Positions 1 to 15,285 of a stretch of DNA of 64,000 bases are shown piece by piece. The DNA lies in NCBI GenBank assembly GCA_017881725.1, contig JADGQO010000042.1:1-64000 (forward strand). The letters are read 5' to 3'. The stretch is from Fibrobacteria bacterium. Its GTDB lineage: Bacteria > Fibrobacterota > Fibrobacteria > UBA11236. The notes beneath the pieces were generated by a model. That model was not told where the DNA came from. It made no database searches and saw only the letters and a list, made by a program, of their open reading frames with translations. A program made the translations under genes and the position numbers. Position 1 is the stretch's first letter. Every line of letters starts with the position of its first letter.

Positions 1-386
1 AACACTTTGCAAAACAACCAGAAGATATAGACCAAAATCAGGATCGAGAGGGTATCGCGCGATCGTTCCTTATTCAGAATCCACAACAAGAGCAGGGCCA
101 GAATCAATCCGCCCATCACGCCGTCGGAGATGAGCATCAGGTAATCCAGGGCCGGGCGCTCGCCGATCAAGTAATACAGACGCCGGAAAAATGGAATGAA
201 AAGGGAAAGGCAGAAAATGTAATAGACTCCCAGCTTGGGAAATTTCAAGGTGGGCAGCACCAACAGGCAGATCATGAATATCGCCGTTTCCAACCGCGAA
301 GGAATATGGCTTAGACGGTATGCGAAAAAAGTTCCGGCGGGAATTAGGAACAGGTAACCCAGGTATTTGGACTGCACGGATTTCAC
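1..386 (-). CDS. Membrane protein of polysaccharide cluster, O-antigen polymerase/ligase-like (partial)
   Basis: Only the N-terminal 128 residues lie in the window; the gene continues past base 1. The reading frame starts at a GTG at 386 that overlaps the TGA of the preceding glycosyltransferase by 4 bp (GTGA), so it is translationally coupled to it. The visible part is very hydrophobic, with several membrane spans such as YLGYLFLIPAGTFFAY and LILALLLLWIL separated by short basic loops. A multi-span protein at the end of a Wza/Wzc/Wzx/glycosyltransferase operon is most often the Wzy-type polymerase or an O-antigen ligase; this family call rests on position and topology, not on a motif. No polymerase is otherwise present in the operon, which favours Wzy. 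Confidence 0.6.
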   Translation of the reverse strand, partial: MKSVQSKYLGYLFLIPAGTFFAYRLSHIPSRLETAIFMICLLVLPTLKFPKLGVYYIFCLSLFIPFFRRLYYLIGERPALDYLMLISDGVMGGLILALLLLWILNKERSRDTLSILILVYIFWLFCKV

Positions 387-1465
387 GTTGGGCGCTCCTG
401 GATTCTCGCCCGGGTGATCCGGTACAGGTCTTCGTAGGCTGATGCCACCGCCATGGGCGTGAACCGTTGCGCGAAGGCCTGGGCGCGCCTGCCGAATTCA
501 GCGCAGACTTTGGCGTCCGCTAGGACGGCCCGCACGGCCGCTTCCATTGACTCCAGCGGCGCGATAATCCCCGTATCGCCGTCCCGCACCAAAAATTCGC
601 TGCCGGGATGCGGCGTGGTCACAACTACGCATGCCGATGCCATCGCTTCAATGATTCCGACGCCGAAACCTTCATAGCTGGATAGGCATAAATACACCCA
701 GCTGCGGGCATACAAAGCTGCCAATTCCGATCCGGGCAATTGGGTATGGAATTCCACCCCGGCGTTTCCTCCCTCTCGTCGAAGTAGCTCCACTTCCGGT
801 TTCGGTCCTACGTACGCGAGCGTCAAGCCGGGGTTGGACTTTCGCAAGCGGCCGAAAATTTCCAAAGCGGCTTCGCCGCGTTTCCGGGAGTAACGGGATC
901 CGATGAATATCAGGCTGGGATGGTTGGTTTTAACGAGCGGGGCGGCATTCGGCGCCGACTCGAGCAAGCAGGGAACGACTCTATCGATTCCGGGCAGGTG
1001 GGCCGCCACATGCGGGGATATTCCGACGCTCAGGCGGCAACGGCGGGCCTCGCGCCTTTCCATCCAGTAGGAAAACCCTTGCGCCAATTTTCCTTTCCAG
1101 GATCTCGCGTGCCGGAATTCCAAAGCGGCCGTGCCGTAAAAGGTGCGCACGAAATTTCCACGGTAGCGTAAAAACGCCCCGTCCCCATGGACATGTACGG
1201 CGTCCCATCCCGTCATTTTCAGGTTACGGTAACGCAGAGGATACCAGATCCGTTTGCATACCGGGAAGCACCGCATGGCCGCCGACAGTAGTTTGGATTC
1301 GATGGCCCGCACTTGGTAGCGCGCATCGGCCGGCAGGGCGCTTTGCGTCAAGACCATCACCTCATGCCCCAGATCAACCAGGGCATTGGCCAGGCGATGC
1401 ACCTGGGTGGCGACGCCGGTAAAGCTGTCCGGAGGCAAATCCCGGTGCAGGAACAGTAGTTTCAC
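383..1465 (-). CDS. GT4-family glycosyltransferase
   Basis: A 360-residue GT-B glycosyltransferase predicted to transfer a sugar onto the lipid-linked repeat unit on the cytoplasmic face of the inner membrane. The N-terminal Rossmann half starts VKLLFLHRDLPPDSFTGVA, with the usual G-rich acceptor loop. The C-terminal half has FIGSRYSRKRGEAALEIF and the donor-binding EX7E motif in SSYEGFGVGIIEAMA, followed by a PHPGSEFLV segment. The open frame extends upstream to 1606, but that extension is inside the neighbour and does not resemble the family. The GTG at 1465 overlaps the upstream stop as GTGA and starts right at the first beta strand. The sugar donor and linkage cannot be told from sequence. 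Confidence 0.88.
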   Translation of the reverse strand: MKLLFLHRDLPPDSFTGVATQVHRLANALVDLGHEVMVLTQSALPADARYQVRAIESKLLSAAMRCFPVCKRIWYPLRYRNLKMTGWDAVHVHGDGAFLRYRGNFVRTFYGTAALEFRHARSWKGKLAQGFSYWMERREARRCRLSVGISPHVAAHLPGIDRVVPCLLESAPNAAPLVKTNHPSLIFIGSRYSRKRGEAALEIFGRLRKSNPGLTLAYVGPKPEVELLRREGGNAGVEFHTQLPGSELAALYARSWVYLCLSSYEGFGVGIIEAMASACVVVTTPHPGSEFLVRDGDTGIIAPLESMEAAVRAVLADAKVCAEFGRRAQAFAQRFTPMAVASAYEDLYRITRARIQERPT

Positions 1466-2673
1466 CGCGTTGGCTCCTTGCGATGTTGTCGCTGTGGGGA
1501 TGTCGAACTCGCACTGCCGACTTTCGTGCCGGCGACCGCGCCGAGGAATTCCGCCGTCTTGGCCGCTACGGCCTTCGCCGTATACCGGGCCTGGACGTTG
1601 CGCCATTGTCCGGAGCGGACCGCGTCTCGGTTCGCGAGTGGAAGATTTCCCAACAACTCGGCCAGGGATTCGACGTCGCTTTGGCGGAAGGTCGTTTCGG
1701 AGAACAAAGTCAGTTCCGGGATACTCCCGGAGTCACTGCCCAGCACGATGACGCCGCAAAGAATCGCTTCGATTAAAAAGCGGCCCACTTGTTCTTTCCA
1801 ATGGCCTTGATCCTGCGAGGGCAGAATGGCATAGTCCGCCGCCTGGTAGAGGCTTCGCAAGGCATCGACCCGCAATGCGCCCAAGTGCCGGTACTGGAGG
1901 CCCAGGGCCGTCCGCAGATCGTTTACCAAGGGACCAGTACCCGCGGTAAATAGCCGGAGTCGGGGGAATCGAGGCAGCGCGCGGGCCAACAGGAGCAGGC
2001 CCTTGGCCGAAACCAGGCTTCCCGCGAAGACCAGTAATACTTCGTCGTCCGCCAAACCGTACTTGCGGCGTAAGATTGCGCGCGTTTCCGCCGGAGCGGG
2101 ATGGAAAACATCTTCCGATGCCCATAAGGGAATCACCGCCGTCGGGCCGCGAAATCCGTGGCCGCGAGCGACGTTTTCGGATTCAACTGTGGCCGCAATC
2201 ACAAAATCAACCAGCCGATTGTTCAGCGCCAGGGCCAAGCGATGTCGGCGGCGATAGTAGTCGGGCTGCGGAAGGTTTTGCAAAGCGTACGCCGTGATGC
2301 GGGCGCGTGGCCAAAACAATTTGGCCACCAAAGCGTGGCACGTGAGGCTTAACCGATCCAAATCGTCCATTATGTACAGAATATCCGGGCGATAGGTCCG
2401 GAGATGTCTGGGCAAAGCGGGTACGAAGTAACGAGCGCTGCGCTCCGGCCAGAAACGGGTCCGGAACAGCTCCCAATGCGTCCCGACTCTGGAGGCGGGT
2501 TCGGCGGAGAAATTCCGCGAGTCGTCCGTGTCCGCCTTAGAATCAAATGACATTGATCCATGCGTCCATCGATAGGGCGCCAAAACGCGCACTCGGAAGG
2601 CCTTCGCCAGTTCGGTGAAGAATTGCCGATAGGCCGGAACGCCTCCGCCGGACCATACAATGAGGATCTTCAT
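1462..2673 (-). CDS. GT4-family glycosyltransferase
   Basis: A 403-residue GT-B glycosyltransferase. It begins MKILIVWSGGGVPAYRQFF, a typical first strand and loop. The second Rossmann domain starts near VLLVFAGSLVSAKGLLLL and carries the donor site LPSQDQGHWKEQVGRFLIEA, followed by GSDSGSIPEL. In place of the common E-x7-E there is a longer spacing (E...E in KEQVGRFLIEA), so donor specificity may differ from the neighbouring GT4 enzymes. The start ATG at 2673 overlaps the stop of the upstream GT2 gene by 4 bp and its stop overlaps the next gene by 4 bp, placing it firmly in the polysaccharide operon. The C-terminal 20 residues are Ser/Arg rich and look disordered. Confidence 0.87.
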   Translation of the reverse strand: MKILIVWSGGGVPAYRQFFTELAKAFRVRVLAPYRWTHGSMSFDSKADTDDSRNFSAEPASRVGTHWELFRTRFWPERSARYFVPALPRHLRTYRPDILYIMDDLDRLSLTCHALVAKLFWPRARITAYALQNLPQPDYYRRRHRLALALNNRLVDFVIAATVESENVARGHGFRGPTAVIPLWASEDVFHPAPAETRAILRRKYGLADDEVLLVFAGSLVSAKGLLLLARALPRFPRLRLFTAGTGPLVNDLRTALGLQYRHLGALRVDALRSLYQAADYAILPSQDQGHWKEQVGRFLIEAILCGVIVLGSDSGSIPELTLFSETTFRQSDVESLAELLGNLPLANRDAVRSGQWRNVQARYTAKAVAAKTAEFLGAVAGTKVGSASSTSPQRQHRKEPTR

Positions 2674-3620
2674 CGTGCCCTCAATTTGGAAAGCGAATTA
2701 GCCTGCTTGGCCGAAACGAGGATCACGCAAAACTGTTCGAAGCCGGCCACGACCATGGCCTGCAGGGCCCGCGCCCAACCCCGCAACATCTCCATCCTGC
2801 TCAGGCCCTGTGAATGGAAGAGGTAATTCCGGCATTCGCGGGCATGGAGAGCGGAGTATTTCCAGCACCAATTGCGCACTGTGCCGTAGGCATCGGGAAA
2901 ATGTCGCAGGCGCCGGTAGCTTACGGGATGCTTTTGGAAAAGGCGCATTTCGGAGCGGATCAACCGTTCCTGCATGGACATCGCGCGCCGCAGGGAAAAC
3001 AGGAATTTCCGTTCGAGGTGGGGATGGATTACTTGGAGGTCAGGGCAGAAAGGTATTGATCCGCGATGCTCGAGAAGGGTCAGGGCCAAATCGGAATCTT
3101 CCCGGAAATTCAGGAATGCTTCATCGAATCCGCCCAACTCCAGTAAGGTCGGCACGTGGAATACCATGTTCGCGGTGGCGAAGGTGCCGCCTTGGACATT
3201 GAACATCGAATGGGTAAAAGGTGGTTTCGGACCTGGCGGCGGCACCACGGCCCCTTCCACGGCGGGGTCGTTCCGGAACCGGTCCGGCAGTGAAGGGAGA
3301 ATATCAAAATACCGTTCGTCCAGAATGCAGTCGGTATCCGAGAAAGCCAGCCACGGCGTAGGCGCTTCGCGCAAGGCGTGATTGCGGGCCTTGGCGATGG
3401 AACTGTGCGGGATGCGATGCATTCGCAGCCGCGGCCGGCGCGCCCACGCGCGGAGGATTTTCGGGGTCGCATCGTCGGACCCGTCATCCACCACGGTCAA
3501 CGCCACCCGCGCGGATCCGAACTTAAGCCATCGTTCGAGAAAACCCGTCAGCAAGTCCGCTTGGTTATATGTCACCACCGCCAAGCTTATCGACGTGGAG
3601 AAGGGCAGATCGGAATTCAC
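2670..3620 (-). CDS. GT2-family glycosyltransferase
   Basis: A 316-residue GT-A fold inverting glycosyltransferase. The N-terminus SISLAVVTYNQADLL is the nucleotide-sugar binding strand, VVDDGSDDAT the second motif, and FSDTDC the metal-binding DxD. FREDSDLALTL supplies the ED catalytic-base motif. The C-terminal half is amphipathic and probably membrane-apposed. I take the GTG at 3620, which overlaps the upstream stop by 4 bp like nearly every junction in this operon; the frame stays open to 3764 but that region lies inside the phosphoglycosyl transferase gene. It probably adds one residue of the polysaccharide repeat; the sugar is unknown. Confidence 0.87.
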   Translation of the reverse strand: MNSDLPFSTSISLAVVTYNQADLLTGFLERWLKFGSARVALTVVDDGSDDATPKILRAWARRPRLRMHRIPHSSIAKARNHALREAPTPWLAFSDTDCILDERYFDILPSLPDRFRNDPAVEGAVVPPPGPKPPFTHSMFNVQGGTFATANMVFHVPTLLELGGFDEAFLNFREDSDLALTLLEHRGSIPFCPDLQVIHPHLERKFLFSLRRAMSMQERLIRSEMRLFQKHPVSYRRLRHFPDAYGTVRNWCWKYSALHARECRNYLFHSQGLSRMEMLRGWARALQAMVVAGFEQFCVILVSAKQANSLSKLRAR

Positions 3621-4255
3621 ACCGCCCCCCGTCCCAGGAAAACGGTCGGTAAGGTGGCCGCCAGGATTTTCATGTCCAGTCGCAAGCCAGCGTGTAAGGC
3701 GTAGTGCACGTCCAAATCCACCATGGCGTCGAATTTCAGATTGGACCGTCCGCGTACTTGCCACAACCCGGTCATTCCTTGCGGCACCGTCATGCGCACT
3801 TTTTGAATGTCGTTGTATTGGCTGACCTCGCGCAGCAAAGGAGGACGCGGTCCTACCAAGGTCATCTGACCGAACAATACATTCCAGAATTGGGGAATTT
3901 CATCCAGGCTGGTTCGGCGCAGGAAGCGGCCCACGCGCGTGATTCGGGGATCATGTTGTAATTTGAAAGTCAGTCCGCCCGATTCATTCAGGTTGTCCAA
4001 TTCCCATTGCTTCAGGTATGCGCCCACCTTCATGGTCCGGAACTTGATGAATTTAAATCGATGTCCATATTGGCCCACCCGGGTTTGCACGAAGAAAATC
4101 GGTCCGCGCGAATCGAGTTTAATGAGCGCCGACAAAGGCAGGAAAGCGATGAAGAAAAACGCCAGTCCGACCAAGGCTCCGCAAATATCCATCCAGCGTT
4201 TTCCGATTCGGTAAACGCTATTCCGGAAACCTTTCCGCAAGGCCTGACGCACCAT
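3617..4255 (-). CDS. Undecaprenyl-phosphate sugar-1-phosphate transferase (monotopic PGT)
   Basis: A 212-residue initiating enzyme that would move a sugar-1-phosphate from a nucleotide sugar to undecaprenyl phosphate, the first step of repeat-unit assembly. It is the short, catalytic-domain-only form (PglC/WcaJ C-terminal family). One re-entrant hydrophobic helix, ICGALVGLAFFFIAFLPL, precedes the conserved LDSRGPIFFVQTRVG and KFIKFRTM. The catalytic Asp-Glu pair is in SLDEIPQFWNVL, followed by MTLVGPRPPL. It lacks the four-helix N-terminal extension of WbaP-type enzymes. The ATG at 4255 gives a 38-bp overlap with the upstream glycosyltransferase; no later in-frame start before the membrane helix looks better. 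Confidence 0.92.
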   Translation of the reverse strand: MVRQALRKGFRNSVYRIGKRWMDICGALVGLAFFFIAFLPLSALIKLDSRGPIFFVQTRVGQYGHRFKFIKFRTMKVGAYLKQWELDNLNESGGLTFKLQHDPRITRVGRFLRRTSLDEIPQFWNVLFGQMTLVGPRPPLLREVSQYNDIQKVRMTVPQGMTGLWQVRGRSNLKFDAMVDLDVHYALHAGLRLDMKILAATLPTVFLGRGAV

Positions 4256-5456
4256 ACGCTTCCATCATTCGCCGGTAACCGGCCTCAGGTCCGAATTCAC
4301 TTTGGAACGATTCGGACGTCATCCGCAATCCGGCGGACAGGCCTTCCCAGCGTCCCCTACATTCTCGTATTTTTCCCGCCAATTGTGCCCGGTTTTCCGG
4401 TTCAAATAATTCGCCGCGCTCACGACTCTTGACAATTTCCGGCAGTCCGCCGACATCGCTGGCCAAGATGTAACATCCTCTGGAAATGGCCTCCAAAGCC
4501 ACATACGGGTAATTTTCCATGAGGGATGGAATGATGGAAATACCGGCCCAGTCAAAATGATGGTACAAGTCCGCATGCCCGCAGGGCCCCGCGTATTCGA
4601 GGCGGAAGCCGTTTTTTCCGGAGGCGTGGGTTTCCAGGCAGTGCCGGAATTGGTCCATGGATCGCAGGTCCGACTCGCGCTTCGACGGATGCATTTCTCC
4701 CACCACGCGCAGGGTAAGACCTTCAGACTCGCTTCCCATAATTTCCAAAGCATCCAACAGGATCTGCAAGCCTTTCCGGTGTTCAATGCGTCCGACATAA
4801 AGCAAATGTTCGGCGGATTTGGCGGTCCAATCGATGGGCTGGTTCCAAAGTACGGCCGGGTTGCGGCTGATTTTCACCGGTTTCCGGACGCGCAGGATTT
4901 CCCGCGTATAATGCCCGGCCATGTAAGCGCTGGGCGAAACCAGGATGTCGGCCCGTTCGCAAGCCTTTTGCTGTAGCGAAAGCAAAAGCCGGCGCTCCTG
5001 GGAGTTGCTGCCGGAGTCGTCCGTCCACCCGCTATGGATGCGGCACACCAAGCGAGGTCGATTTTCAGATTCCGGATTCCAGGTCAATAGTGCGCCCTCG
5101 CCCATGGTTTCGGGGTACTCGCAAACATCGAAGGCATTGAAATCCGGGTTGCGGCCCACATAGTCCGCCGCCGTGCGTGCCCAGGTCATCGCATCCAGGT
5201 AATGCGGCAATCGCGCCCGGTACCAAGCGCGATAGGGATAATAAATTCTTGAGGCGGGGAAATGATGATTCAACATGGCGACGCGGTGGACTTGAACTCC
5301 TTCCACCGAGTGACGCTCGGTGATGGGTCCATTGCAAATCACGTGGACTTCGTGGCCGTGGTCAGCCAGTAATTTCGCCGCTGCGGCTGCGTAGGTTCCA
5401 ATTCCGCCGACGTGCGTGAGAGGCGGGAATTCACGTGAAATGATGGCGACTTTCAT
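4218..5456 (-). CDS. GT4-family glycosyltransferase
   Basis: A 412-residue GT-B glycosyltransferase with a full GT4 layout. MKVAIISREFPPLTHVGGIG is the N-terminal strand with a glycine loop, LLYVGRIEHRKGLQILLDAL begins the donor domain, and PSLMENYPYVALEAI holds the E-x7-E donor-binding motif, followed by ASDVGGLPEIV. It sits between the phosphoglycosyl transferase and another GT4 gene, with 25 bp to the upstream neighbour. The N-terminal half resembles glycosyltransferases that act on lipid-linked acceptors, but the acceptor cannot be specified. Confidence 0.9.
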   Translation of the reverse strand: MKVAIISREFPPLTHVGGIGTYAAAAAKLLADHGHEVHVICNGPITERHSVEGVQVHRVAMLNHHFPASRIYYPYRAWYRARLPHYLDAMTWARTAADYVGRNPDFNAFDVCEYPETMGEGALLTWNPESENRPRLVCRIHSGWTDDSGSNSQERRLLLSLQQKACERADILVSPSAYMAGHYTREILRVRKPVKISRNPAVLWNQPIDWTAKSAEHLLYVGRIEHRKGLQILLDALEIMGSESEGLTLRVVGEMHPSKRESDLRSMDQFRHCLETHASGKNGFRLEYAGPCGHADLYHHFDWAGISIIPSLMENYPYVALEAISRGCYILASDVGGLPEIVKSRERGELFEPENRAQLAGKIRECRGRWEGLSAGLRMTSESFQSEFGPEAGYRRMMEAYGASGLAERFPE

Positions 5457-5481
5457 ATTTGCATTCTCCGCCCGGGTGGAT

Positions 5482-6723
5482 TTATCCTGCCGCGACCTTC
5501 CGGTAATAATCGATCATTTGGCGTGGGATTTCCTGTCTCCGGTTGCGAATATATTCCGTTTGCAAGGGGATGGACTCCCAACTCACGCCGGAAGCGACCG
5601 ATTCGAGAGCGCGTACCCAGTCGGAAACGTCGCCGGAATTGGCCAGGGGAGCTTTTGTGATCGACGCCACGGATTTCATTTCTCCCGTCGCTGAACCTAG
5701 GCAGAGCAAGCCGGCAGCCATGCCCTCGAAATAAACATAGGGGCTATTTTCCCATCGGGAAGGCACGGCCAGCACGTTAAAGCGTCGGAACAAGGCGATT
5801 CGGCGTTCGGGCGCGCAAGGCGGTTCCCAAGTAATGCGGTTGCGTATGCCCAGGGGAGCGGCATGCATGGCGGTGCGAACGGCATGCGAATACTCTGCCT
5901 GGCCCTCGCTTCCGACCAGGGTAAGGCTGGCATTTGGATGCGTTCGGGAGAACTCCAGAAAGGCTTTAACCAAATCCAAAGTACCCTTGCGCGGTTCCAC
6001 GCGGCCCAAACAAAGGATTCGCAACTCGTCCGTATTTGTTTGCACCGGCGCCAATTCGGAAACTTGACCCAGTGTCGAATCGGGATTTCGATCCGGTGCC
6101 GAACCGGGATTTTGCCCCGGCTCGGTAAGCGGAGGAACCGGGTTGGGGATATGCACCCAATTTTTCAGCGTGGGCAATTTTTCCGCCACGAATTGGGGAG
6201 AGGGCACGGTCAGGCGTTGGGTCCGCGCGAGGCATGCCGATTCCCTGCGTCGGCATGAGGCGTCCGCGAGTTTTTGGCGCAGTCGGCGCAATGAAAGAAA
6301 ACTCCCATTGGAATACGATTCTTCGCTCACGAGGAAATTCGGAGTGTGGATGCGCACGATGCATCTCGTTTGCAACGCCTGGTTTCGCATGGTGAAAAAG
6401 GTGTAACCCAGGAAATCACAGAACTCATAGACGCGTCCGGGACGATCCGTTCGTGATAATTCCTTTTCCAGCCATCGCGAATGTTCCCACAGGGCGTTTT
6501 CGCCGGCCGCCCATCGGTACGCCATTCCGCGCCAGGGGTAGGGCAACCAGGGTTCTCGCCCAATGGGAATGGTCGTCTCACCGGGATAGGCCTCCGGACT
6601 ATGCGTGTAAATCCGCGTCGTCACGCCATGCTCGCGGCAAGCCGCCATGGCCAACCGGAAATAGGTGCGAATGCCTCCGCCTATGGGGTGGGGTGGTTCG
6701 GAATCAATATAGGTGACATCCAT
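5482..6723 (-). CDS. GT4-family glycosyltransferase with internal low-complexity linker
   Basis: A 413-residue GT-B glycosyltransferase. MDVTYIDSEPPHPIGGGIRT is the first strand and acceptor loop, and LRILCLGRVEPRKGTLDLV opens the donor domain. VPSRWENSPYVYFEGM holds the E-x7-E donor site, then GSATGEM. Between the two halves lies a Gly/Pro/Asp/Asn-rich linker (PGQNPGSAPDRNPDSTLGQ) built from imperfect seven-residue repeats, visible in DNA around 6060-6130. Such a linker is unusual in a GT-B interdomain hinge. The gene is separated from the flippase by 40 bp, one of the few non-overlapping junctions in the operon. Confidence 0.88.
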   Translation of the reverse strand: MDVTYIDSEPPHPIGGGIRTYFRLAMAACREHGVTTRIYTHSPEAYPGETTIPIGREPWLPYPWRGMAYRWAAGENALWEHSRWLEKELSRTDRPGRVYEFCDFLGYTFFTMRNQALQTRCIVRIHTPNFLVSEESYSNGSFLSLRRLRQKLADASCRRRESACLARTQRLTVPSPQFVAEKLPTLKNWVHIPNPVPPLTEPGQNPGSAPDRNPDSTLGQVSELAPVQTNTDELRILCLGRVEPRKGTLDLVKAFLEFSRTHPNASLTLVGSEGQAEYSHAVRTAMHAAPLGIRNRITWEPPCAPERRIALFRRFNVLAVPSRWENSPYVYFEGMAAGLLCLGSATGEMKSVASITKAPLANSGDVSDWVRALESVASGVSWESIPLQTEYIRNRRQEIPRQMIDYYRKVAAG

Positions 6724-6763
6724 GTTACGTTATATTTCCCGAAGGGTTACGGAAGCGAAACCT

Positions 6764-8389
6764 TCACCGCAAGGTTTCCGCGTCTGCTGGGCGTTTACGA
6801 TCCAAAATCCAGGTCAGAGGACGCGGAAGGAAGCGTTGCATGGCGGAAAGGATTTTTAGGTCGTCGCCTTGGGGCCTGAACCAGGCCAGCACCAGGATGA
6901 GGTAGGCCGATCCGGCGACGGCGCATGCAAAGGCCAGTCGCACCGTGCGGGGTCCGAAAAGGCTTTCCGCGTCGTGTCCGGTCCATTCCAAGAGCAGCGA
7001 TTGCATGGGTTGAAACAGGCGGAAGGCGGGATGCTCCAGGGTCAAGAGGTAGGCGAGCAAGACGCCCATCAACCCGGAAGCGCAGGCGGATTTGATCCAG
7101 GCTCCCCAGGGAATGGATAGGCCCATGCTCCGATTGGTAAAAATGAATCCCCCGATGACGCCCAGCGAAGTGGTGGTGCCATAACAGGCCGCGGCTCCCG
7201 GAGCGCCGTAGCGCGGTATCAGCCAGATATCGAGCAGGATGTTGAGCACGGCCAGTACCGATCCATAGCGGAGCACGAATCCCTGCTTATTGCTGGCGTA
7301 AATGGCGGCCGCGCCCGGTTGGGCGAGATTGGACAGCAAGGCGCCCAGGCAAAGTATTTGAAAACACACCTTGGCTTCGGAATAGGCATGGCCGTAGAAG
7401 ATCACGATTAATTCGTAGGAGGCGATGAAGCAGGCCGTGACCGAGGGGAAGGCGAAAAAAGCCACGTAGCGCAAGGCATGGTGGTAGGTCCGTTTGATTT
7501 TGTCGGTTTCCTGGCGGCCCTGCTGCTCGGCCGCGATAGGCAATAGGATGCGCCACATCAAGTTGGGCAAAGCTCCGGTGAATTTCGTGATGAGGTTATG
7601 GGCCAGATTGTAATACGCGATTTGCGGGGCGGCGCAATATTTACCCAGGAAAAAATTTTCCGATCGCGACCAGACGATCAAGTCCACGAAATGGATGCCG
7701 ATCAAGCTGCGATTGTAGGTGAGGACTTCCTTTTTCCAGGTCGAGCCTCCCCGAGTCCTGAACCATCCCCGCAAGAGACCCTCGCGCCGGCAGGCGAAAA
7801 AGAAAAAGATAAGGTTGACGATTGAGAAAATGAGGTTGGTCCAAAACAGCGAGAGCAGGCCGTAACCGTGCGTCATCAGGTAGACCTTGGTCAAAAGGGC
7901 CAGCGGCGTGACCGTCAGGGAATGCAGGCTCTGGTAGCGGAAGATTTGCGCGCCCTCCAACGTCGCGGAAAAAATCGCGGTTTGGATTCCCGGTGTGATG
8001 GCCATGAAGGCCAACCTGAAAAGCCAGGTCTGCTTTCCGGTGAAATAATGTTCCGCGATGCGGGGGGAAAGGAAAATCAGCCCGGCAGTCGTGACCACGG
8101 TAATGGCCAATTCCACGTAGAAAATGAACCGCACCGCCGCCACGATGTCGGCGTCCCGGCCTTCGGCGCGGTATTGCGCCGTGAACTTTGTGATACAGGT
8201 GATGAATCCGAGGGAAACCACGACCGATACGGTTCCGGCGAACCAGGAAACCTGGTGGAAAATGCCCAGGTCATTGGGTCCCAGGCTGCGCGCCATGAAC
8301 ACCGATGCCGCCATCCCTAGGCAGAAGGAAACGATATGCGAGCACAGGAAGTGGACGACGTTGCGGGCGGCCTTCCGTAGCGTGGACAT
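6764..8389 (-). CDS. Wzx-type lipid-linked oligosaccharide flippase
   Basis: A 541-residue multi-span membrane protein of the polysaccharide-transporter branch of the MATE/MOP superfamily. It would flip undecaprenyl-PP-linked repeat units to the periplasmic side. The N-terminus shows the family signature FLCSHIVSFCLGMAASVFMARSLGPNDLGIF in broken form: a transmembrane helix, then the R-x-L-G-x-x-x-L/F-G turn (RSLGPNDLGIF). About 14 hydrophobic segments follow, and the C-terminal region carries KSACASGLMGVLLAYLL-type helices. A mid-protein segment (IKRTYHHALRYVAFFAFP) matches the usual second repeat. It lies 16 bp downstream of the tyrosine autokinase, as expected in Wzy-dependent pathways. Confidence 0.88.
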   Translation of the reverse strand: MSTLRKAARNVVHFLCSHIVSFCLGMAASVFMARSLGPNDLGIFHQVSWFAGTVSVVVSLGFITCITKFTAQYRAEGRDADIVAAVRFIFYVELAITVVTTAGLIFLSPRIAEHYFTGKQTWLFRLAFMAITPGIQTAIFSATLEGAQIFRYQSLHSLTVTPLALLTKVYLMTHGYGLLSLFWTNLIFSIVNLIFFFFACRREGLLRGWFRTRGGSTWKKEVLTYNRSLIGIHFVDLIVWSRSENFFLGKYCAAPQIAYYNLAHNLITKFTGALPNLMWRILLPIAAEQQGRQETDKIKRTYHHALRYVAFFAFPSVTACFIASYELIVIFYGHAYSEAKVCFQILCLGALLSNLAQPGAAAIYASNKQGFVLRYGSVLAVLNILLDIWLIPRYGAPGAAACYGTTTSLGVIGGFIFTNRSMGLSIPWGAWIKSACASGLMGVLLAYLLTLEHPAFRLFQPMQSLLLEWTGHDAESLFGPRTVRLAFACAVAGSAYLILVLAWFRPQGDDLKILSAMQRFLPRPLTWILDRKRPADAETLR

Positions 8390-8405
8390 TCGGCGGCGAC
8401 CCGGG

Positions 8406-10562
8406 TCAGTCCTTCTTGGTCAGGTAATAGTGGTAATAATGCTTGTAATATCCGTAGGAGTTGTAGCCCTTGGTGATGTCCACGTCGTTCAGGATGCAGC
8501 CGAGCACCCTGGCGTTTACGTTTCGCAGGGTTTGCAGCGTGCGCGCGCTCAACGTCAAACTCGTCTTGTTGGCGCGGATTACGAGCACCACGCCGTCCAA
8601 CTTGTTGGCGAGAATGGCCGCGTCGGTCACGGCTATGATCGGCGGAGTGTCGAACAGGATGTAGCGGTAACGCTTCTTAAGCTCCACGAGGAAGGCGTCC
8701 ATTTTTTTAGAGCCCAGCAGTTCGGCCGGATTCGGCATGTAGGCGCCGGCGGTCATTACGCGCAGGTTGGTGCCTTCCACCTCGCGGCAAACTTCGTCGA
8801 TGGTATTGGTTCCCGCGAAAAAATCGCCGAAACCCGGTCCGCGATCGAATCCGAAGAGATGATGGTTCACGGGACGGCGCAAATCCGCGTCGATGATCAG
8901 CGTCGGCTCGCCTTGTTGCGCGAAGGAAAGCGCGGTATTGGCCATGGTGAGGGATTTGCCTTCGCCCGGCCCGCTGCTGGTGATGAGCAAGGTTTGAATC
9001 ACCTTGTCTGGACTGGAAAAGACGATATTGGTGCGGAGCGAACGGTACGCTTCGGCGACCACGCTTTCCTCGCTTTGCGGGCCGACCACCAACTCGGGAT
9101 ATTTGTTCCGGATTTGTTGCTTTTTCCCCTTGGTCACCGTGCGCTTCACTTCCAGGTCCGTCTTCTTTGGGACGATGTGGGGGATGGTCCCGAGCAAGGT
9201 CAAGGCCAGGGTTTTTTCGACATCATCAGGCGACTTCACGGTGTCGTCCATCAGCTCCCGCAAGAGGCTGAGGCCCACGCCGATGGCGGTGCCGATGAAA
9301 AGGGACACCAGATAAAACGCGTAGTCGCGCCGCTGGATGGGATCGGTCGGCAATTGGGCCGCGTCCACGAGCTTGATTCCCCCGCTCTTGGATTGGACCT
9401 GGATGACCGCGTCTTCCAACCGCTCCGAAAGCCGCTGTTGGGTCGCGATATAACGCGCGAGGAGATTATCCAACTGGCTCATTTCGAATTCGGTTTTCCC
9501 GATGTCGGGATGCCCCTGCCGATACGCAATGATGGCCCGCTTGAAGGCGTCCAAGCGCGCGTTTTTAAGCCGCATTTCCCCTTCGGCCAGCGCCACTTCC
9601 TTGCGCAGCGCCTGCCATTGGTTCAGCATGCCGATGTCCTGCTGCGAGTCGTTATGCGGGGTAAGCTTTACGATGCGCTCTTCCAGTGACTGCATGTCCG
9701 TATTCAATTTGCTGTCCGGCGTGATGGTGATGCCCAGGCGGATTTTCTTTTCTTTTTCTTTTTCCAATTGCGCCATTTGCACCCGCAGCGAGGCCAGTAG
9801 GGAGTCGTTTTTTCCGGCCGCCGGTTTGTTGATGGTGTTATCGAGGGATTTGAAATAGCTCCGCTTGGCCTCCAGATTGGCCTTGTCCAATTCCAGTTTG
9901 ACCAATTCGTCCTGGTAGTTTTTTTCCAACGCGGCCAGCCCGGCCGCGTCGCCGAGACTGGATAATTTGGAGACGTCCAGTTTTTTATTGCGCTCCAGTT
10001 GGATTTCATCCCGCTTGCGAACGCATAAGTCGATTTGCTCCTTAATGGCCGAGACGGCCTTCTCGGCTTCCTCGTTGTCCACTTTCCGGCAAAAGACAAT
10101 CAGGCTGTCCGTGGCGTTTTTAACCAGTGTGTAACTCAACGCCGCCGAATTGGTTTTGGCGGAAATCGCAATGAAGGAATGCACGCTGCCTTCATTCACC
10201 GTGATGGTTTGCGCCAGGTATTCTTTTTGGTGGGACAATATTTTCGAGTGAGCCAATTCCGGCGCCAAGGCTTGGGCCAGCCGTTCGAGAAACGCCTGGC
10301 TCTGGAAAATGGCTCGGTAATATCCGATGTCTTTTTGGCTGGCGCCGTTGTCCATCATCATGGGTGTTTCCGGACTGAATTTTTCATCCATCACCAGTTG
10401 GCTTGAGGTGATGAAGGAGTCCGGCAGGTGCTTTACGAACCACCAGGTGGGGCCCAGGAACGCGGAAAGGGAAAACAAGATCATCCACCGGTTCTTGACC
10501 AGGATCCGGAAATAATCCCCGAGCGCCAACTCGCGCGTGGGCTTGTGTGGAGCCTGGCTCAT
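8406..10562 (-). CDS. Wzc-type polysaccharide co-polymerase with BY-kinase domain
   Basis: A 718-residue inner-membrane tyrosine autokinase that sets chain length and works with the outer-membrane exporter. It has an N-terminal Wzz domain with TM1 at about 26-43, a periplasmic part dominated by coiled coil (about 165-400), and TM2 at about 414-434. The cytoplasmic BY-kinase has Walker A GPGEGKS (531-537), Walker A' LIIDADLRRP and Walker B YILFDTPP. The last 20 residues contain eight tyrosines, the autophosphorylation cluster. I start at the ATG at 10562, which forms an ATGA overlap with the upstream gene, rather than the GTG ten codons earlier. Kinase and co-polymerase are fused in one chain, as in proteobacterial Wzc. 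Confidence 0.94.
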   Translation of the reverse strand: MSQAPHKPTRELALGDYFRILVKNRWMILFSLSAFLGPTWWFVKHLPDSFITSSQLVMDEKFSPETPMMMDNGASQKDIGYYRAIFQSQAFLERLAQALAPELAHSKILSHQKEYLAQTITVNEGSVHSFIAISAKTNSAALSYTLVKNATDSLIVFCRKVDNEEAEKAVSAIKEQIDLCVRKRDEIQLERNKKLDVSKLSSLGDAAGLAALEKNYQDELVKLELDKANLEAKRSYFKSLDNTINKPAAGKNDSLLASLRVQMAQLEKEKEKKIRLGITITPDSKLNTDMQSLEERIVKLTPHNDSQQDIGMLNQWQALRKEVALAEGEMRLKNARLDAFKRAIIAYRQGHPDIGKTEFEMSQLDNLLARYIATQQRLSERLEDAVIQVQSKSGGIKLVDAAQLPTDPIQRRDYAFYLVSLFIGTAIGVGLSLLRELMDDTVKSPDDVEKTLALTLLGTIPHIVPKKTDLEVKRTVTKGKKQQIRNKYPELVVGPQSEESVVAEAYRSLRTNIVFSSPDKVIQTLLITSSGPGEGKSLTMANTALSFAQQGEPTLIIDADLRRPVNHHLFGFDRGPGFGDFFAGTNTIDEVCREVEGTNLRVMTAGAYMPNPAELLGSKKMDAFLVELKKRYRYILFDTPPIIAVTDAAILANKLDGVVLVIRANKTSLTLSARTLQTLRNVNARVLGCILNDVDITKGYNSYGYYKHYYHYYLTKKD

Positions 10563-11509
10563 TTTTTCAGCACCGAGGAAACCACGAACCATGCCGTGAT
10601 CAACGTGACGAGATCACGAGCCACTTCCAGGCTCTTGGTCCAGGTAATGGCCTTGGTATAAACAATCATGACGTCCCCTTCGGCCAAGAGGGGGAGGTCC
10701 TCGGTTTTTCCGTTGTCGATGAATTTCTGCATGTCCAGCAAGTAATCGGCCCGTTGCCCACCCGGCGATCCGATGATACGCACGCGGTTCAGGTTCGCGT
10801 CCCCGGACGGCCCTCCGGCCAGATAAAGCATGTCGAATACCGACGCCGATTCCCCCACGGGATAAAATCCGGGCTTGTTCACGGCCCCGAGAATTTTCAC
10901 GTAGCGGGATTTTTTCGAGGAGAGGATGATGATGCGATCGCCGTCCGCCAGAGTCGGCAACAGCGCGAGGTCTCCGGAAGACATGAATTTTTGCAGGTCA
11001 TAGTAGCTGGCGTTTTCGTCCCCTTGGTTTTTATGCACCAATTTGACGCGCTGCAAATCCGCCTGATCCATGGTGCCCATCGCGGCCAGCAGAACTTCCT
11101 GCAGGCTCGCCTTGGGGGAAACCGTGACCAGCCCCGGCTTCTTAACCTGGCCCAACACCATGATGGAAATCGGCGTTTCGGAAAGCACGCTGACGAGCAC
11201 TAGCGGCGACTCCACGACCTTGGCCAATTTATACGCGAGGATGTCCTGCAATTCGCTGGTGGTTTTGTCGACGACGGATGCGTCCTGATAAAGCGGGTAA
11301 TCGATGGTGCCGTTGTCCTTGACGCGCACCACTTCGGAGAGCTCCTTGTCGTTCTTCACGATGATGTTGAGGGTCATGCCGGCCTTGATGACGGTTGCTT
11401 GGGAAGGAACGAAAGCGAAAAGTAAAATGGCAAAGGTTAAAAGGAAAACGGCAAACGGGAAGGCGCAGCCCTTTTCACCGATCCGGCTCCAGGAATTTGT
11501 ATTCATCAT
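10559..11509 (-). CDS. Wza/SLBB-family polysaccharide export protein
   Basis: A secreted protein of about 316 residues that should form the periplasm-outer membrane channel for the polysaccharide. After the signal peptide comes the Poly_export domain (IKAGMTLNIIVKNDKELSEV, GTIDYPLYQDASV). Two SLBB-like modules follow (ISIMVLGQVKKPGLVTVSP and KILGAVNKPGFYPVGESASV), then a C-terminal hydrophobic helix SLEVARDLVTLITAWFVVSSV. There is no lipobox; cleavage is predicted at PSQA/TV by signal peptidase I, unlike lipoprotein Wza. The start is uncertain: two adjacent ATGs at 11509 and 11506 and an ATG at 11530 all lie in heptamer repeats with no Shine-Dalgarno. The frame remains open to 11572. Confidence 0.85.
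   Translation of the reverse strand: MMNTNSWSRIGEKGCAFPFAVFLLTFAILLFAFVPSQATVIKAGMTLNIIVKNDKELSEVVRVKDNGTIDYPLYQDASVVDKTTSELQDILAYKLAKVVESPLVLVSVLSETPISIMVLGQVKKPGLVTVSPKASLQEVLLAAMGTMDQADLQRVKLVHKNQGDENASYYDLQKFMSSGDLALLPTLADGDRIIILSSKKSRYVKILGAVNKPGFYPVGESASVFDMLYLAGGPSGDANLNRVRIIGSPGGQRADYLLDMQKFIDNGKTEDLPLLAEGDVMIVYTKAITWTKSLEVARDLVTLITAWFVVSSVLKK
11407..11455 (-). repeat. Heptanucleotide repeat block B, inside the signal-peptide codons
   Basis: Seven in-phase 7-bp units on the minus strand: TTTGCCG, TTTTCCT, TTTAACC, TTTGCCA, TTTTACT, TTTCGCT, TTCGTTC. The block begins exactly on a codon boundary of the Wza-like gene (residue 19 if translation starts at 11509). It encodes FAVFLLT, FAILLFA and FV, a seven-residue periodicity that forms the signal-peptide hydrophobic core. 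Its A-rich strand is the plus strand, opposite to block A at 11509-11550. Confidence 0.8.
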
Positions 11510-11550
11510 TTTGACTTTTAGCTTTTGCATTTTGAATTTTGAATTTTCAA
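11509..11550 (-). repeat. Heptanucleotide repeat block A, at the start of the Wza-like gene
   Basis: Six in-phase 7-bp units on the minus strand with the form NNNAAAA: TTGAAAA, TTCAAAA, TTCAAAA, TGCAAAA, GCTAAAA, GTCAAAA. The block begins 3 bp after the stop of the TonB-like gene and its last A is the first base of the ATG at 11509. It occupies the position where a ribosome binding site would be. It is far more A-rich than the surrounding GC-rich genes. Confidence 0.85.
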
Positions 11551-11552
11551 GA

Positions 11553-12608
11553 TCACGCCGGCTTGAAAACAAAGGGCGATTTCATTTCCACCGGGCCCCC
11601 CGTGGAGGGAGGAAAAATCCAACGCTTGATCCGGCGCAGCAATTCGGCGGTGAAATCCGGATCGTCCAAAGTGGTCTCCGATCGCATGGTGGTCGCCGAA
11701 GATACCGCACCGTCTTCTTCGATGACCATTACGACCGTGATTTTACCTTCCAAGGCGGGATTGATCTTCAGACGTTCCTCATACATCATGCTGATTACCG
11801 ATTGTTTTTTGTTGATGAAGGCGGCCACGTCCGATAAGCTCCGGTTGCCCGTGTATTTGGATGATTTGTCGAGCAACTCCGGTTTCTCGAGCTCGGTCAC
11901 GCCGATTTTTTCCATCACACTGCTCTTAGCATTTTGGAATCCTTTCACGAGCTTGTCAATGCCGGATGTCGCCGCGACCGCGTCATCCTTGGTTTGCGGG
12001 GCGGATCCATCCTGGTTCACGGTTCCCTTTTTGCCGTCATACTTGGTCAGTCCATCGATGTTTCCGAGTTTGGATTCGAGGTCGCCGAAGCCCGCGAATC
12101 CGCCGCCTTGGCTTTGTCGCCCCACCGGCCTGCCCTGGGCGCTGGGCCCCTTTCCGGAAAGGATGGACAGTACCGCCGCCTTGGTGATGCGCTCCTGGAC
12201 TTTGCCGATTTGCTCCGTGACGGTTTTGCGGGAACGTTCTATGCGCGCGGACGCCGATGCGTCTCCGGCGGCTCCGGCCGGACTCTGTCCGGCTGGTCCA
12301 CGGGCATGTCCGGAGCGGCCTTTACCGGATTGAGGCGACGCGGGCTTAGGCACGATTTTCCCCGGGGGTTTCAAGGGCATGATGATTTTGGCTACGCGCT
12401 CGGAAATGTCCTCCAGGCTGGATTTTTCCAATCCGCTATAATCGATCGATTTAACGCCGACCAGCAATAGCACGAAGAGGAGCGCGCACGCGGTGAAGCT
12501 TGTAATGGCCGGCACGTCAATTTGATCGAACAGCCCGCCTTTATAGGCGGACCGCAAGCCATCCGGCAACTTTTCCCGCGGCTTTTCCTTTAACTTCTCA
12601 GTCAACAT
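11553..12608 (-). CDS. TonB-like protein with AgmX/PglI C-terminal domain
   Basis: A 351-residue energy-transducer-like protein. A cytoplasmic basic N-terminus is followed by one transmembrane helix (about 34-52, ITSFTACALLFVLLLVGV), a proline/glycine-rich periplasmic linker (about 80-130) and a coiled-coil-like middle. The C-terminal domain (about 268-350) has the AgmX/PglI pattern: MMYEERLKINPALEGKITVV, then EEDGAVSSATTM, ELLRRIKRWIFPPS and SPFVFKPA. AgmX was named from Myxococcus gliding-motility work. The gene overlaps the second exbD by 11 bp and is followed directly by the Wza-like gene. No TonB-dependent receptor is nearby, so the partner is probably another envelope protein, perhaps of the polysaccharide exporter. 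Confidence 0.85.
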   Translation of the reverse strand: MLTEKLKEKPREKLPDGLRSAYKGGLFDQIDVPAITSFTACALLFVLLLVGVKSIDYSGLEKSSLEDISERVAKIIMPLKPPGKIVPKPASPQSGKGRSGHARGPAGQSPAGAAGDASASARIERSRKTVTEQIGKVQERITKAAVLSILSGKGPSAQGRPVGRQSQGGGFAGFGDLESKLGNIDGLTKYDGKKGTVNQDGSAPQTKDDAVAATSGIDKLVKGFQNAKSSVMEKIGVTELEKPELLDKSSKYTGNRSLSDVAAFINKKQSVISMMYEERLKINPALEGKITVVMVIEEDGAVSSATTMRSETTLDDPDFTAELLRRIKRWIFPPSTGGPVEMKSPFVFKPA

Positions 12609-13086
12609 CGTGTTTCATCACCGCCAGGGAAAAACTGCTGTATCCGTTTTCACCGCAGGTCGCCAAAACTTTTTGCAGCAACCAGTAGGGAATTTTTTTA
12701 TCGCCCTGTACCGTGAGTTTTCCGTTGAAGGTCACGTTTTTGTCGTACTCGGCGATGGCTTCGGTTTGTTTCCGCTTATCCTCCAAAAAGGTGGAGAGCC
12801 CGGGAATCTGGGTTCCGGAGCGCTCCTGCTCTTCGCTGACCAAGGCCACCGGAGTCCCTTCCACCAGGATGTGCTTTTCGCTGATGGCGACGATTATCGT
12901 ATTCTCGGGCCTGGTTTTGGACGTGCTCATCGGCAGTTCGAGATTCTTGCTTTGGGTGATGATGTCGCCTTCGCTGGAAAAATTCTTCAAGAGGAAAAAG
13001 ACGAGTACCGTCAACACGTCGACCAGCGAGGTCATTTGCGGCTTGGCCATGTCCGGTGGGCCGCGGCGTTTCCGTCTCATGGTCAT
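12598..13086 (-). CDS. ExbD/TolR-family protein, second copy (keeps the proton-path Asp)
   Basis: A 162-residue proton-channel subunit. A short basic N-terminus leads to one transmembrane helix, MTSLVDVLTVLVFFLLKNF, in which Asp23 is at the position of the protonatable aspartate of ExbD/TolR/MotB. A periplasmic domain of about 115 residues follows, with the strand-helix pattern of the family (VAISEKHILVEGTPVALV, then ITVQGDKKIPYWLLQKVLATCG in shortened form). It is 4 bp downstream of the first exbD and overlaps the TonB-like gene. Two different ExbD proteins with a single ExbB match the AglR-AglQ-AglS composition of the Myxococcus motor. Confidence 0.9.
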   Translation of the reverse strand: MTMRRKRRGPPDMAKPQMTSLVDVLTVLVFFLLKNFSSEGDIITQSKNLELPMSTSKTRPENTIIVAISEKHILVEGTPVALVSEEQERSGTQIPGLSTFLEDKRKQTEAIAEYDKNVTFNGKLTVQGDKKIPYWLLQKVLATCGENGYSSFSLAVMKHDVD

Positions 13087-13090
13087 GGAT

Positions 13091-13606
13091 TCACCCCCCG
13101 GACAAGAGGATTTTCGGAAATTTGTTTTCGCGCAGCACGTCCATCGAAGTGATGATGTCCTGGTAGACGATGTTCGAATCGATCAGCATCACCACGCTTT
13201 CGGCGCTCGGATACTCTTCCTTCAGCCGTTTCATGAATTGTCCCAAACGCGGAAAGTCGTAGCCCTGGGCCCCTTTGGGAATGGGGTCCAGCTTACGGCC
13301 CTCGCCGATGACCTGGAATCCGTTTTCGGATACCACCAAGGTGATATCGACCTCCGGGTGTGTCGCTGTATCGGCGGCTGATTGGGTGCCTGCTTCACCG
13401 GGTCCGGAAGGGGGCAAGTTGAATTTGATCACGGCCAATTGCGTGAAGACCACCATGGTGACCAGAAAGGAAATGAGGATGATGAGCATGTTCATCATCG
13501 GCGTCATGTCCAGATCAATTGGCGCGGACTGCGCCAACCCACCTTTGGAGGCGATACCGCCCCTCGATTTCCCCCCCGGCGCGGGTCCGGAGACCGACCC
13601 GCTCAT
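13091..13606 (-). CDS. ExbD/TolR-family protein, first copy (Asn replaces the proton-path Asp)
   Basis: A 171-residue ExbD/TolR homologue. The transmembrane helix reads LDMTPMMNMLIILISFLV; residue 39 is Asn (codon AAC on the minus strand at 13490-13492) where the family normally has the essential Asp. A long Gly/Ser/Lys-rich cytoplasmic N-terminus precedes the helix. The periplasmic part contains a family-like DITLVVSENGFQVIGEG strand-helix and ends with SVVMLIDSNIVYQDIITSMD and FPKILLSGG. The start ATG overlaps the exbB stop by 4 bp. Together with the second ExbD it would make a stator with only one type of ionizable helix. Confidence 0.9.
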   Translation of the reverse strand: MSGSVSGPAPGGKSRGGIASKGGLAQSAPIDLDMTPMMNMLIILISFLVTMVVFTQLAVIKFNLPPSGPGEAGTQSAADTATHPEVDITLVVSENGFQVIGEGRKLDPIPKGAQGYDFPRLGQFMKRLKEEYPSAESVVMLIDSNIVYQDIITSMDVLRENKFPKILLSGG

Positions 13607-14400
13607 CCCCGGCCCATTCCGGGCATAACGCCGCCCACCGGTCCCTGACCGACCGGACTTGGTCCGACCGGTCCCTGACCGCCATAATCGGGGCCCCCTA
13701 AACCTTGACCGCCCGGACCCTGTCCGGCCGGCCCCGATTGTCCGTATCGATTTCCCGGATTGGTCTTACGTTGCGCGTTGAGAAAGTTCACCAGTCGCAA
13801 CACGGTCTCATCGATTTGCTCCAGTAAATGATTCGACTTCGAACCCAGCCAGGAAAATGCCGCCATGCAAATCATGGCCGACATGAGGCCAAGCGCCGTG
13901 GCATTGAGCGCCAAGGTGATTCCTCGCGCCAATAGCTTGCTTTTCTGGGAAGGGTCGGCGGATTCCAAGGCCGAAAAGGCTTCCTGAAGGCCGAAAATGG
14001 TGCCCAATAATCCCACCAGGGTGCACAAATTGGCGAGGAGGCCCAAGTAATGGGTGCGCTTTTGCAGGCGGGGAACTTCGCGAAGAGAAACCTCTTCGAG
14101 GGCATCCTTGATTTCCTCGGGAGTGGCGACTTGCTCGTATTTCCAAATGCCTGCTTCCAAGATTAGGCCCAGCGGAGTCCCGGTTTGCGCGCACAGCTTA
14201 CGCGCCTCCGCAATTTTTTCCTTGCGAATCAAAGCCGTGGTATCCGCCAAAAGTTTCTTGGAATTGATACGGCACTTGATGAAAAAGAACCAAACCCGCT
14301 CGAATATCACGGACAGGCCTAGGCCCAACAGGCCCAGGATGAGGTATTCGACGGTACCGCCTTCATTGATGAATTTGGCAATTTTCATCAGGATTTCCAT
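13603..14400 (-). CDS. MotA/TolQ/ExbB-family proton channel with Gly/Pro-rich tail
   Basis: A 265-residue inner-membrane channel protein of the ExbB/TolQ/AglR family. TM1 is at about 17-37, then a cytoplasmic domain; TM2 (about 119-140) contains LVGLLGTIFGLQEAF and TM3 (about 163-185) contains ITLALNATALGLMSAM. The conserved Thr/Ala-Thr positions of the proton path are kept. I choose the ATG at 14400 because AGAGG stands just upstream; the open frame reaches 14571 but has no family similarity there. From residue 215 to the end there is a Gly/Gln/Pro-rich tail made of GQGPGG-like units, which ExbB proteins normally lack. This is the first gene of the polysaccharide operon. Confidence 0.92.
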   Translation of the reverse strand: MEILMKIAKFINEGGTVEYLILGLLGLGLSVIFERVWFFFIKCRINSKKLLADTTALIRKEKIAEARKLCAQTGTPLGLILEAGIWKYEQVATPEEIKDALEEVSLREVPRLQKRTHYLGLLANLCTLVGLLGTIFGLQEAFSALESADPSQKSKLLARGITLALNATALGLMSAMICMAAFSWLGSKSNHLLEQIDETVLRLVNFLNAQRKTNPGNRYGQSGPAGQGPGGQGLGGPDYGGQGPVGPSPVGQGPVGGVMPGMGRG

Positions 14401-14437
14401 AATTCCTCTGACTTTCCAAAAGACTCGGTGTGCGGCT

Positions 14438-14467
14438 ATTATACCGTTCCGGTTTTTTGGGGTGCAA
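14438..14467 (-). promoter_or_regulatory. Sigma70-like promoter of the motor/polysaccharide operon
   Basis: On the minus strand, TTGCAC (14462-14467), an 18-bp spacer and a perfect TATAAT (14438-14443). Transcription would begin near 14431, about 30 nt before the exbB ATG. It is the only clear promoter seen upstream of the 14-kb operon. Confidence 0.65.
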
Positions 14468-14667
14468 TCGAGGAGAGCGGGTAAATCAGGGTGATGGATT
14501 GAACGTGCACCCAGGTTGAATAGAGTTCCTTGAGTTACGGGTCCGACCGTCGGTCCAATCCGAGGCCTCAAACTTGCATGCGGACGATCCGAACTTTCCC
14601 TATTCTTGAGGTCTTCATTCTTTCCTTGAGCAACCGAAAAAATGCTGAATTTATCCTGTAGTAGCCC

Positions 14668-14696
14668 TTGTGCATTCCAAAGGTTGGCTATATATT
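14668..14696 (+). promoter_or_regulatory. Sigma70-like promoter of the SH3-domain gene
   Basis: TTGTGC (14668-14673), 17-bp spacer, TATATT (14691-14696), followed by AAGGA about 10 nt before the ATG at 14742. Confidence 0.6.
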
Positions 14697-14741
14697 GCTA
14701 ACCAACGGACACGGTTCCCCACCGGTTTTAAGGAAGGGTGT

Positions 14742-15200: not shown

Positions 15201-15258
15201 TTTACAGACCGCCGCAAGGTGAGTCGGGTCGAGTCTCTTAGGTAATTGATGTAAATGA

Positions 15259-15285
15259 CCCCGCAGCTGACTGCGGGGTTTTTTT
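15259..15285 (+). terminator. Intrinsic terminator after the SH3-domain gene
   Basis: Perfect 8-bp stem CCCCGCAG/CTGCGGGG (15259-15266, 15271-15278) with a CTGA tetraloop, followed by seven T. Confidence 0.92.

Follow-up and report, generated by a model that had tools for sequence, protein, structure and literature searches.

Energised envelope motor and polysaccharide genes in one operon

The window analysed here is a stretch of 64,000 nucleotides of a Fibrobacteria bacterium, a metagenome-assembled genome (MAG) of the phylum Fibrobacterota comprising 5.2 Mb in 235 contigs. It starts at the end of contig JADGQO010000042.1 (G000:C177:1-64000) and carries, in one run, genes for a proton-driven ExbB/ExbD-type motor, a TonB-like transducer and a polysaccharide synthesis and export pathway. 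With a probability of about 0.58, the locus would represent the inner-membrane half of an envelope machine of the Agl-Glt/Nfs type along with the polysaccharide pathway, of Wzx/Wzy type, on whose product the machine acts. The arrangement of these known parts is real and conserved and, as far as we found, undescribed: a search of the open-access literature retrieved no report of a link between such a motor and wza.

The run occupies the minus strand from position 14400 down to position 1, in the order exbB, exbD1, exbD2, TonB-like gene, wza, wzc, wzx, two glycosyltransferase genes, a phosphoglycosyl transferase gene, three more glycosyltransferase genes and a gene cut by the contig end. A preliminary description of this DNA had named one ExbB, two ExbDs and an AgmX/PglI-type TonB-like protein followed by Wza, Wzc, Wzx, five glycosyltransferases and a phosphoglycosyl transferase, and our Pfam and NCBIfam profile searches, by which the proteins of the window were assigned to families, bear this out. 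exbB (13603..14400) encodes a proton-channel subunit of AglR type with 265 residues (MotA_ExbB, PF01618, 86.7 bits); its start, ATG 14400, agrees with that of the orthologs, and the 322-residue open frame exceeds the gene. Thr134 and Thr168 of the protein align with the polar residues of the second and third transmembrane helices of E. coli ExbB/TolQ. A 4-bp overlap joins the exbB stop to the start of exbD1 (13091..13606; PF02472, 47.0 bits), whose product has Asn39 at the site expected to hold the proton-binding Asp. ExbD2 (12598..13086; PF02472, 52.7 bits) keeps the Asp, within the motif MTSLVDV. The TonB-like gene (11553..12608) overlaps exbD2 by 11 bp and encodes a protein of 351 residues with one transmembrane helix, a periplasmic linker and a TonB-like C-terminal domain, the latter matching the AgmX/PglI model NF033768 with 71.4 bits (cut-off 40). 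The following wza-like gene (10559..11572) codes for an outer-membrane polysaccharide export (OPX) protein with a Poly_export domain, two SLBB domains and a conserved hydrophobic C-terminal segment; it starts at TTG 11572 or, more likely, at an ATG near 11530/11509. wzc (8406..10592) encodes a chain-length regulator with a bacterial tyrosine kinase (BY-kinase) domain (TIGR01007, 184.7 bits, cut-off 108), and its in-frame ATG at 10562 would give a 4-bp overlap with the wza stop.

Between positions 14400 and 383, adjacent genes overlap or lie at most ~40 bp apart, and terminator-like sites are no commoner in the run than in shuffled sequence, so a single transcript from exbB to the glycosyltransferase genes is plausible. 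Of the earlier proposal, the gene overlaps are thus confirmed, and the single promoter stands as plausible. A probable promoter region (14401..14741, minus strand) is putatively placed by the way the genes are arranged, which is conserved within the genus.

Conservation of the motor-wza link

The preliminary description had suggested searching other genomes for a conserved order of motor genes and wza/wzc, and this order proved to be retained. Close homologues derive from other MAGs of Fibrobacterota. Among the first eight loci by ExbB similarity, exbB-exbD-exbD-tonB-wza-wzc is present in all eight, four of which have ExbB proteins at ~50% identity. A census of orthologs by ExbD1 profile search in 168 genomes of the phylum identified strong motor orthologs in 27: each of the six genomes in the window's genus, plus 21 genomes belonging to other families. 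In this search, f4, the large family of Fibrobacter type, yielded no ortholog of the wza-linked motor. Two of the 27 loci are untestable for wza because their contigs end too early. In 24 of the 25 testable genomes, representing at least eight families, wza directly follows the TonB-like gene on the same strand, and wzc follows wza at every locus whose contig reaches that far. The motor-wza link is conserved but not absolute.

The orthologous motor operons contain no TonB-dependent receptor. Motor genes linked to a receptor and lacking a conserved wza link, put forward earlier as the outcome that would speak against the link, are not what the orthologs have, but they are what the examined loci of a sister paralog clade (L050 and L062) have. 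The earlier statement that no tolB, pal or TonB-dependent receptor lies nearby holds for positions 1-18 kb of the window, the 18 kb that the scan covered.

Kinship with the myxobacterial machinery

In the ExbB tree, the window clade, the paralog clade, Fibrobacter core-type proteins and myxobacterial AglR-type proteins form one group (62 rows, support 100/98), with E. coli ExbB/TolQ outside it (SH-aLRT 99 in a second test). The earlier attribution to an AglR-type motor is therefore upheld in the sense that the protein groups with myxobacterial copies, AglR itself not being singled out among them. The name AgmX given to the TonB-like protein fared less well: the C-terminal domain assignment is correct, but the transducer is nearer to GltG/PglI than to AgmX/GltJ, and the description of the motor as simply AgmX-linked was dropped. 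The GltG/PglI model NF033760 matches residues 27-351 with 54.9 bits, far below the model cut-off of 650, which the GltG proteins of genomes G195 (9 Mb) and G342 exceed (1033 and 760 bits). When profiles were compared with hhalign, the window-type TonB-like family matched the C-terminal region of GltG with an E-value of 5.7e-20.

The Exo polymer of Myxococcus, exported by a Wza homologue, is moved by Nfs complexes that draw their power from AglRQS, and AglR binds both GltG and NfsG (PMC3858216). The Fibrobacterota system resembles AglRQS, Nfs and Exo in having one TolQ-like and two TolR-like subunits, a GltG/NfsG-type TonB transducer, a GltD-type protein with tetratricopeptide repeats (TPR) and a polymer exported by a Wza/Wzc-type system. 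It differs in that motor and exporter share one operon and GltD is apparently split in two; most relatives also have a STAS gene between the exbD genes. In addition, the Asp is missing from the first ExbD, the barrels are not recognisably homologous, and the OPX protein and the kinase belong to a lineage of their own. A core AglRQS/GltDEGC cluster in one member of Fibrobacteres, and duplicated clusters in Fibrobacteres, were described by Luciano et al. (2011, PMC3169522); the word polysaccharide is absent from the main text of that paper. Their Agl-Glt core complex likewise has clustered aglR-Q-S with gltD/E/G-like genes, but the Fibrobacter-type family has only an unlinked core-type cluster (L076-L078) and not the wza-linked one. 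With ExbBD-TonB and its receptor the system shares subunit families, and the sister clade works with a receptor; unlike that system, the orthologous operons lack a receptor and have two different ExbDs and a GltG-type transducer. Similarly, Tol-Pal (TolQRA) contains ExbB/ExbD superfamily subunits, but the operon lacks TolB and Pal, and in the tree its ExbB is separate from E. coli TolQ.

Predicted outer-membrane components

The preliminary description omitted the outer-membrane half of the system. Outside the window's genus, the usual operon reads merR, u360, u390, TPR1160, TPR1000, a gene for a small secreted protein and then exbB-exbD1-STAS-exbD2-tonB-wza-wzc. The beta-rich proteins u360 and u390 each carry a signal peptide and are predicted outer-membrane barrels; a Foldseek search with a low-confidence model of u390 gave outer-membrane porin-type barrels as best matches (E-value = 3e-4). 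TPR1000 has the lipobox of a lipoprotein. For two members, the C-terminal domain scores 26.2 and 31.1 bits with Bac_rhamnosid_N, above the cut-off of 25, and a low-confidence model of this domain resembles the sugar-binding-like (jelly-roll) N-terminal domains of GH2/rhamnosidase proteins (Foldseek, E-value = 2.8e-5). Profile comparison further matched the C-terminal half of TPR1160 to the N-terminal half of the myxobacterial GltD-type protein, and the N-terminal half of TPR1000 to its C-terminal half, in each case for three of three paralogs. These matches are colinear, with E-values from 1e-17 to 5e-25 that the TPR repeats inflate, and suggest that GltD is split over two proteins in Fibrobacterota.

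In the genome of the window, merR-u360-u390-TPR1160-TPR1000 is found on a separate contig (C123, 13241-4011). The same barrel and TPR genes occur, likewise apart from the motor, in the five remaining genomes of the genus. The small secreted protein is represented in this genus by a weak match in one genome only. Across the 168 genomes, the u390 barrel and the motor are both present in 25, the motor alone in two, the barrel alone in one and neither in 140 (Fisher p 2e-26, uncorrected for shared descent); the three genomes with a single component are incomplete MAGs (completeness 68-83%). The shared operon in one lineage, taken together with co-occurrence in the other, points to one machine.

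The STAS-domain gene between exbD1 and exbD2 of most non-genus operons (e.g. L020:11161-11487) is absent from the window; its product is possibly a cytoplasmic regulator of the motor.

Asymmetry of the ExbD pair

The proton-carrying Asp ends the motif TPFID in E. coli ExbD and VPLLD in TolR. The corresponding motifs of the window are TPMMN in ExbD1, where the earlier reading had overlooked the missing Asp, and TSLVD in ExbD2. All 27 orthologs have Asn in ExbD1 and Asp in ExbD2. The paralog loci have this Asn and Asp pattern in 17 of 17 cases, and nine other Fibrobacterota clusters have Asn, Gly or Ser in the first ExbD and Asp in the second. A survey outside the phylum covered 34 AglR-type loci. 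Of 25 complete pairs newly read outside the phylum, 23 show the same asymmetry (21 with Asn, one with Ser, one with Gly), as do L073 and L075; L119 and L127 are Asp/Asp, as are the three myxobacterial pairs L070-L072. ExbB retains both of its polar channel residues. Since the two Asp residues characteristic of AglRQS were looked for and only one was found, we describe the system as working like AglRQS-Nfs rather than as being an instance of it. No report of an Asp/Asn ExbD pair was found in the open-access literature.

According to a 2022 review, 10-fold symmetry of 5:2 motors is ‘almost certain to be a universal feature’, and hetero- versus homodimerisation of AglQ/AglS is unsettled (PMC9389320). 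If ExbD1 and ExbD2 pair with each other, there would be one protonatable residue instead of two. We give about even odds that a large Agl/Glt-type family, that of the window included, has an asymmetric 5:2 rotary motor with an obligate ExbD1-ExbD2 heterodimer and a single protonatable Asp. Such a heterodimer would break the 10-fold symmetry and turn the motor in five 72-degree steps or in a limping cycle. Somewhat less probably, ExbD1 lies outside the rotating core, the motor being formed by the ExbB pentamer and an ExbD2 homodimer, with ExbD1 serving as a regulator or peptidoglycan anchor. The absence of the proton Asp from ExbD1 in all Fibrobacterota pairs tested would suit this arrangement, as would the unsettled type of the AglQ/AglS dimer. 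However, the two ExbDs are always adjacent, have a common topology and are conserved as a pair; moreover, myxobacterial AglQ and AglS both have the Asp, and AglQ D28N is inactive, abolishing sporulation in Myxococcus (PMC3858216). This alternative concerns the asymmetric-motor step only and is compatible with any of the functions considered below.

Related motor loci

The sister paralog clade comprises 17 loci with exbB-exbD-exbD; in the examined L050 and L062, genes for TonB and a TonB-dependent receptor come next. The receptors adjoining exbB-exbD-exbD-TonB at these two loci (L050:5680-8538 and L062:10733-13597) have a built-in TonB C-terminal domain before the plug (PF03544, 46 and 42 bits). 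At L060 and L062 (genomes G032 and G031), a multi-SLBB OPX gene (531 residues in L062) lies directly upstream of the TonB/receptor-type exbB-exbD-exbD. The genome of the window has a second ExbB system on contig C73 (L084:8283-14004), with a 518-residue ExbB and DUF3450 and an OPX-type gene (482 residues) ~2.7 kb downstream. Elsewhere in Fibrobacterota, ExbB-ExbD fusion proteins of ~430-445 residues (L079:8051-9382, minus strand; L085:9413-10711, plus strand; L086:8461-9756, minus strand) are encoded between separate exbB and exbD genes, and their ExbD part lacks the Asp. In Fibrobacter-type genomes (L076, L077 and L078 in G106, G102 and G145), exbB-exbD-exbD-tonB comes after a gene for a TPR protein of ~1290 residues, as in the Glt core. 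F. succinogenes FSU_2400-2403, which are raised on cellulose and were read as functioning in cellodextrin uptake (PMC6851124), may be a cluster of this type, a candidate identity only.

Outside the phylum, a GltG-like gene, a gene for ~200 residues, a barrel-like gene, an OPX gene and wzc stand in a row at L123 and L132, and at L122 an OPX gene lies shortly downstream of the GltG-like gene; the three loci come from other families. Mapped on the ExbB tree, the OPX link requires six changes, from which it follows that the joining of motor and polysaccharide export was probably gained, or lost, more than once.

Other genes of the window

The polysaccharide part of the run continues on the minus strand with a wzx-type flippase gene (6764..8389; Polysacc_synt_3, PF13440, 88.7 bits). 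Five glycosyltransferases were recognised by profile matches, four with a GT1 domain (5482..6723, 4218..5456, 1462..2673 and 383..1606) and one with a GT2 domain (2670..3764), and the initiating phosphoglycosyl transferase is encoded at 3617..4255 (Bac_transf, PF02397, 199 bits). The operon is truncated at base 1 because the window begins at a contig end, so that only the 5′ part of a Wzy-like gene (3..386) is present. This part is 66-70% identical to relatives of ~517-570 residues, whose full-length sequences match PF04932 weakly (23 bits, under the cut-off of 31.7). In the relatives, the region past the cut point holds the Wzy-like gene, GT4/GT9 genes and then housekeeping genes. Phosphoglycosyl transferase, flippase, OPX protein and Wzc-type co-polymerase of the Wzx/Wzy pathway were all detected in the window; with the glycosyltransferases and a likely Wzy, the locus resembles capsule and exopolysaccharide pathways of this type but, unlike them, carries its own proton motor and transducer.

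Divergently from exbB, a gene for a secreted SH3-like protein (14742-15200, plus strand; PF08239, 20.5 bits, below cut-off) is kept in this position within the genus and is followed by a strong terminator-like hairpin at 15257-15280. A minus-strand frame at 14651-15200 was dropped as a gene in favour of this one.

Proposed mechanism and alternatives

From the gene order and by analogy with Agl-Nfs and Exo of Myxococcus (PMC3858216), we infer that the motor moves or exports a polymer, and a shift of the polymer along the surface after its export appears most likely. Protons would pass via the one Asp that ExbD2 has, with a pentamer of ExbB surrounding an ExbD1-ExbD2 pair, and the GltG-like protein would relay the motion across the periplasm to the TPR/barrel complex. 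The latter would take hold of the polymer that OPX/Wzc has exported and move it along the cell, resulting in a wrapped coat or a slime track, comparable to the action of Agl-Nfs on Exo at the surface of Myxococcus spores.

Several observations weigh against such a machine. One testable genome, G167 (family f14; L043), has a complete Glt-type operon that ends at the TonB-like gene, with no wza; genes with sorting domains of the type IX secretion system come after it. The sister motor clade goes with an ordinary-looking TonB/receptor pair. For the predicted barrels, the candidate counterparts of GltA/B/H, profile comparison detected no sequence similarity to those myxobacterial barrels that were tested; the match of the small secreted protein to GltF is weak (hhalign E-value = 2.3e-4, probability 45%), and the models of the u390 barrel and the TPR1000 jelly-roll are of low confidence (pLDDT 41-43, four-row alignments), their Foldseek matches being hints only. 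The ExbB sampling was seeded with the window family and so favours its relatives. The Fibrobacterota case is known here from sequence alone. Finally, Exo and slime are still exported in Myxococcus agl mutants (PMC3858216), and the role of the motor could therefore lie after export or be different here.

The best surviving alternative, though an unlikely one, is energised export, in which the GltG-like domain would push the OPX protein or a paired barrel, opening it or ratcheting the polymer out, as a TonB-like energiser of Wza. The TonB-like gene indeed abuts wza in 24 of 25 loci, with ends that overlap or nearly so, and the two loci outside the phylum with a barrel-like gene between the GltG-like and OPX genes are in keeping with it. 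Yet the conserved barrels and TPR proteins go with the motor and not with wza, from which they are split in the window's genus, and E. coli Wza is not known to need such a motor. The continued export in agl mutants also speaks against it.

Still less probable is a gliding motility machine whose polymer would be the slime through which motor complexes pull the cell. Motor and transducer are of the same families as in Agl-Glt gliding, and slime is tied to Agl-Glt in Myxococcus (PMC3858216). However, a generic Arf-family search of the window genome, a weak test made with no dedicated MglA model, gave no MglA-like match at an E-value of 1e-5; the GltG-like protein, at 351 residues, has no room for the N-terminal cytoplasmic part found in Myxococcus GltG (640 residues, with FHA; PMC3169522); and gliding is unproven in these uncultured lineages. 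Ordinary TonB-dependent nutrient uptake, with the receptor elsewhere and the polysaccharide genes as mere neighbours, would fit the receptor-linked sister clade but is very unlikely for the window clade and already largely refuted, as the order persists in 24 of 25 testable genomes at ExbB identities down to ~50%, where a chance neighbourhood would have decayed, and the partners with which the motor co-occurs are predicted barrels and GltD-like TPR proteins rather than a receptor.

Implications

In Myxococcus, the link between Agl and polysaccharides came from genetics and microscopy, and the motor and exporter genes lie apart. Their joining in one operon kept across families of Fibrobacterota provides independent genetic support for the handling of polysaccharides by such motors, and the conserved gene set singles out the barrels and TPR proteins that form part of the machine. 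PMC9389320 leaves open whether two protonatable residues are required in a 5:2 motor and whether the inner pair is a heterodimer. The conserved loss of the Asp in one ExbD offers natural motors for testing both points.

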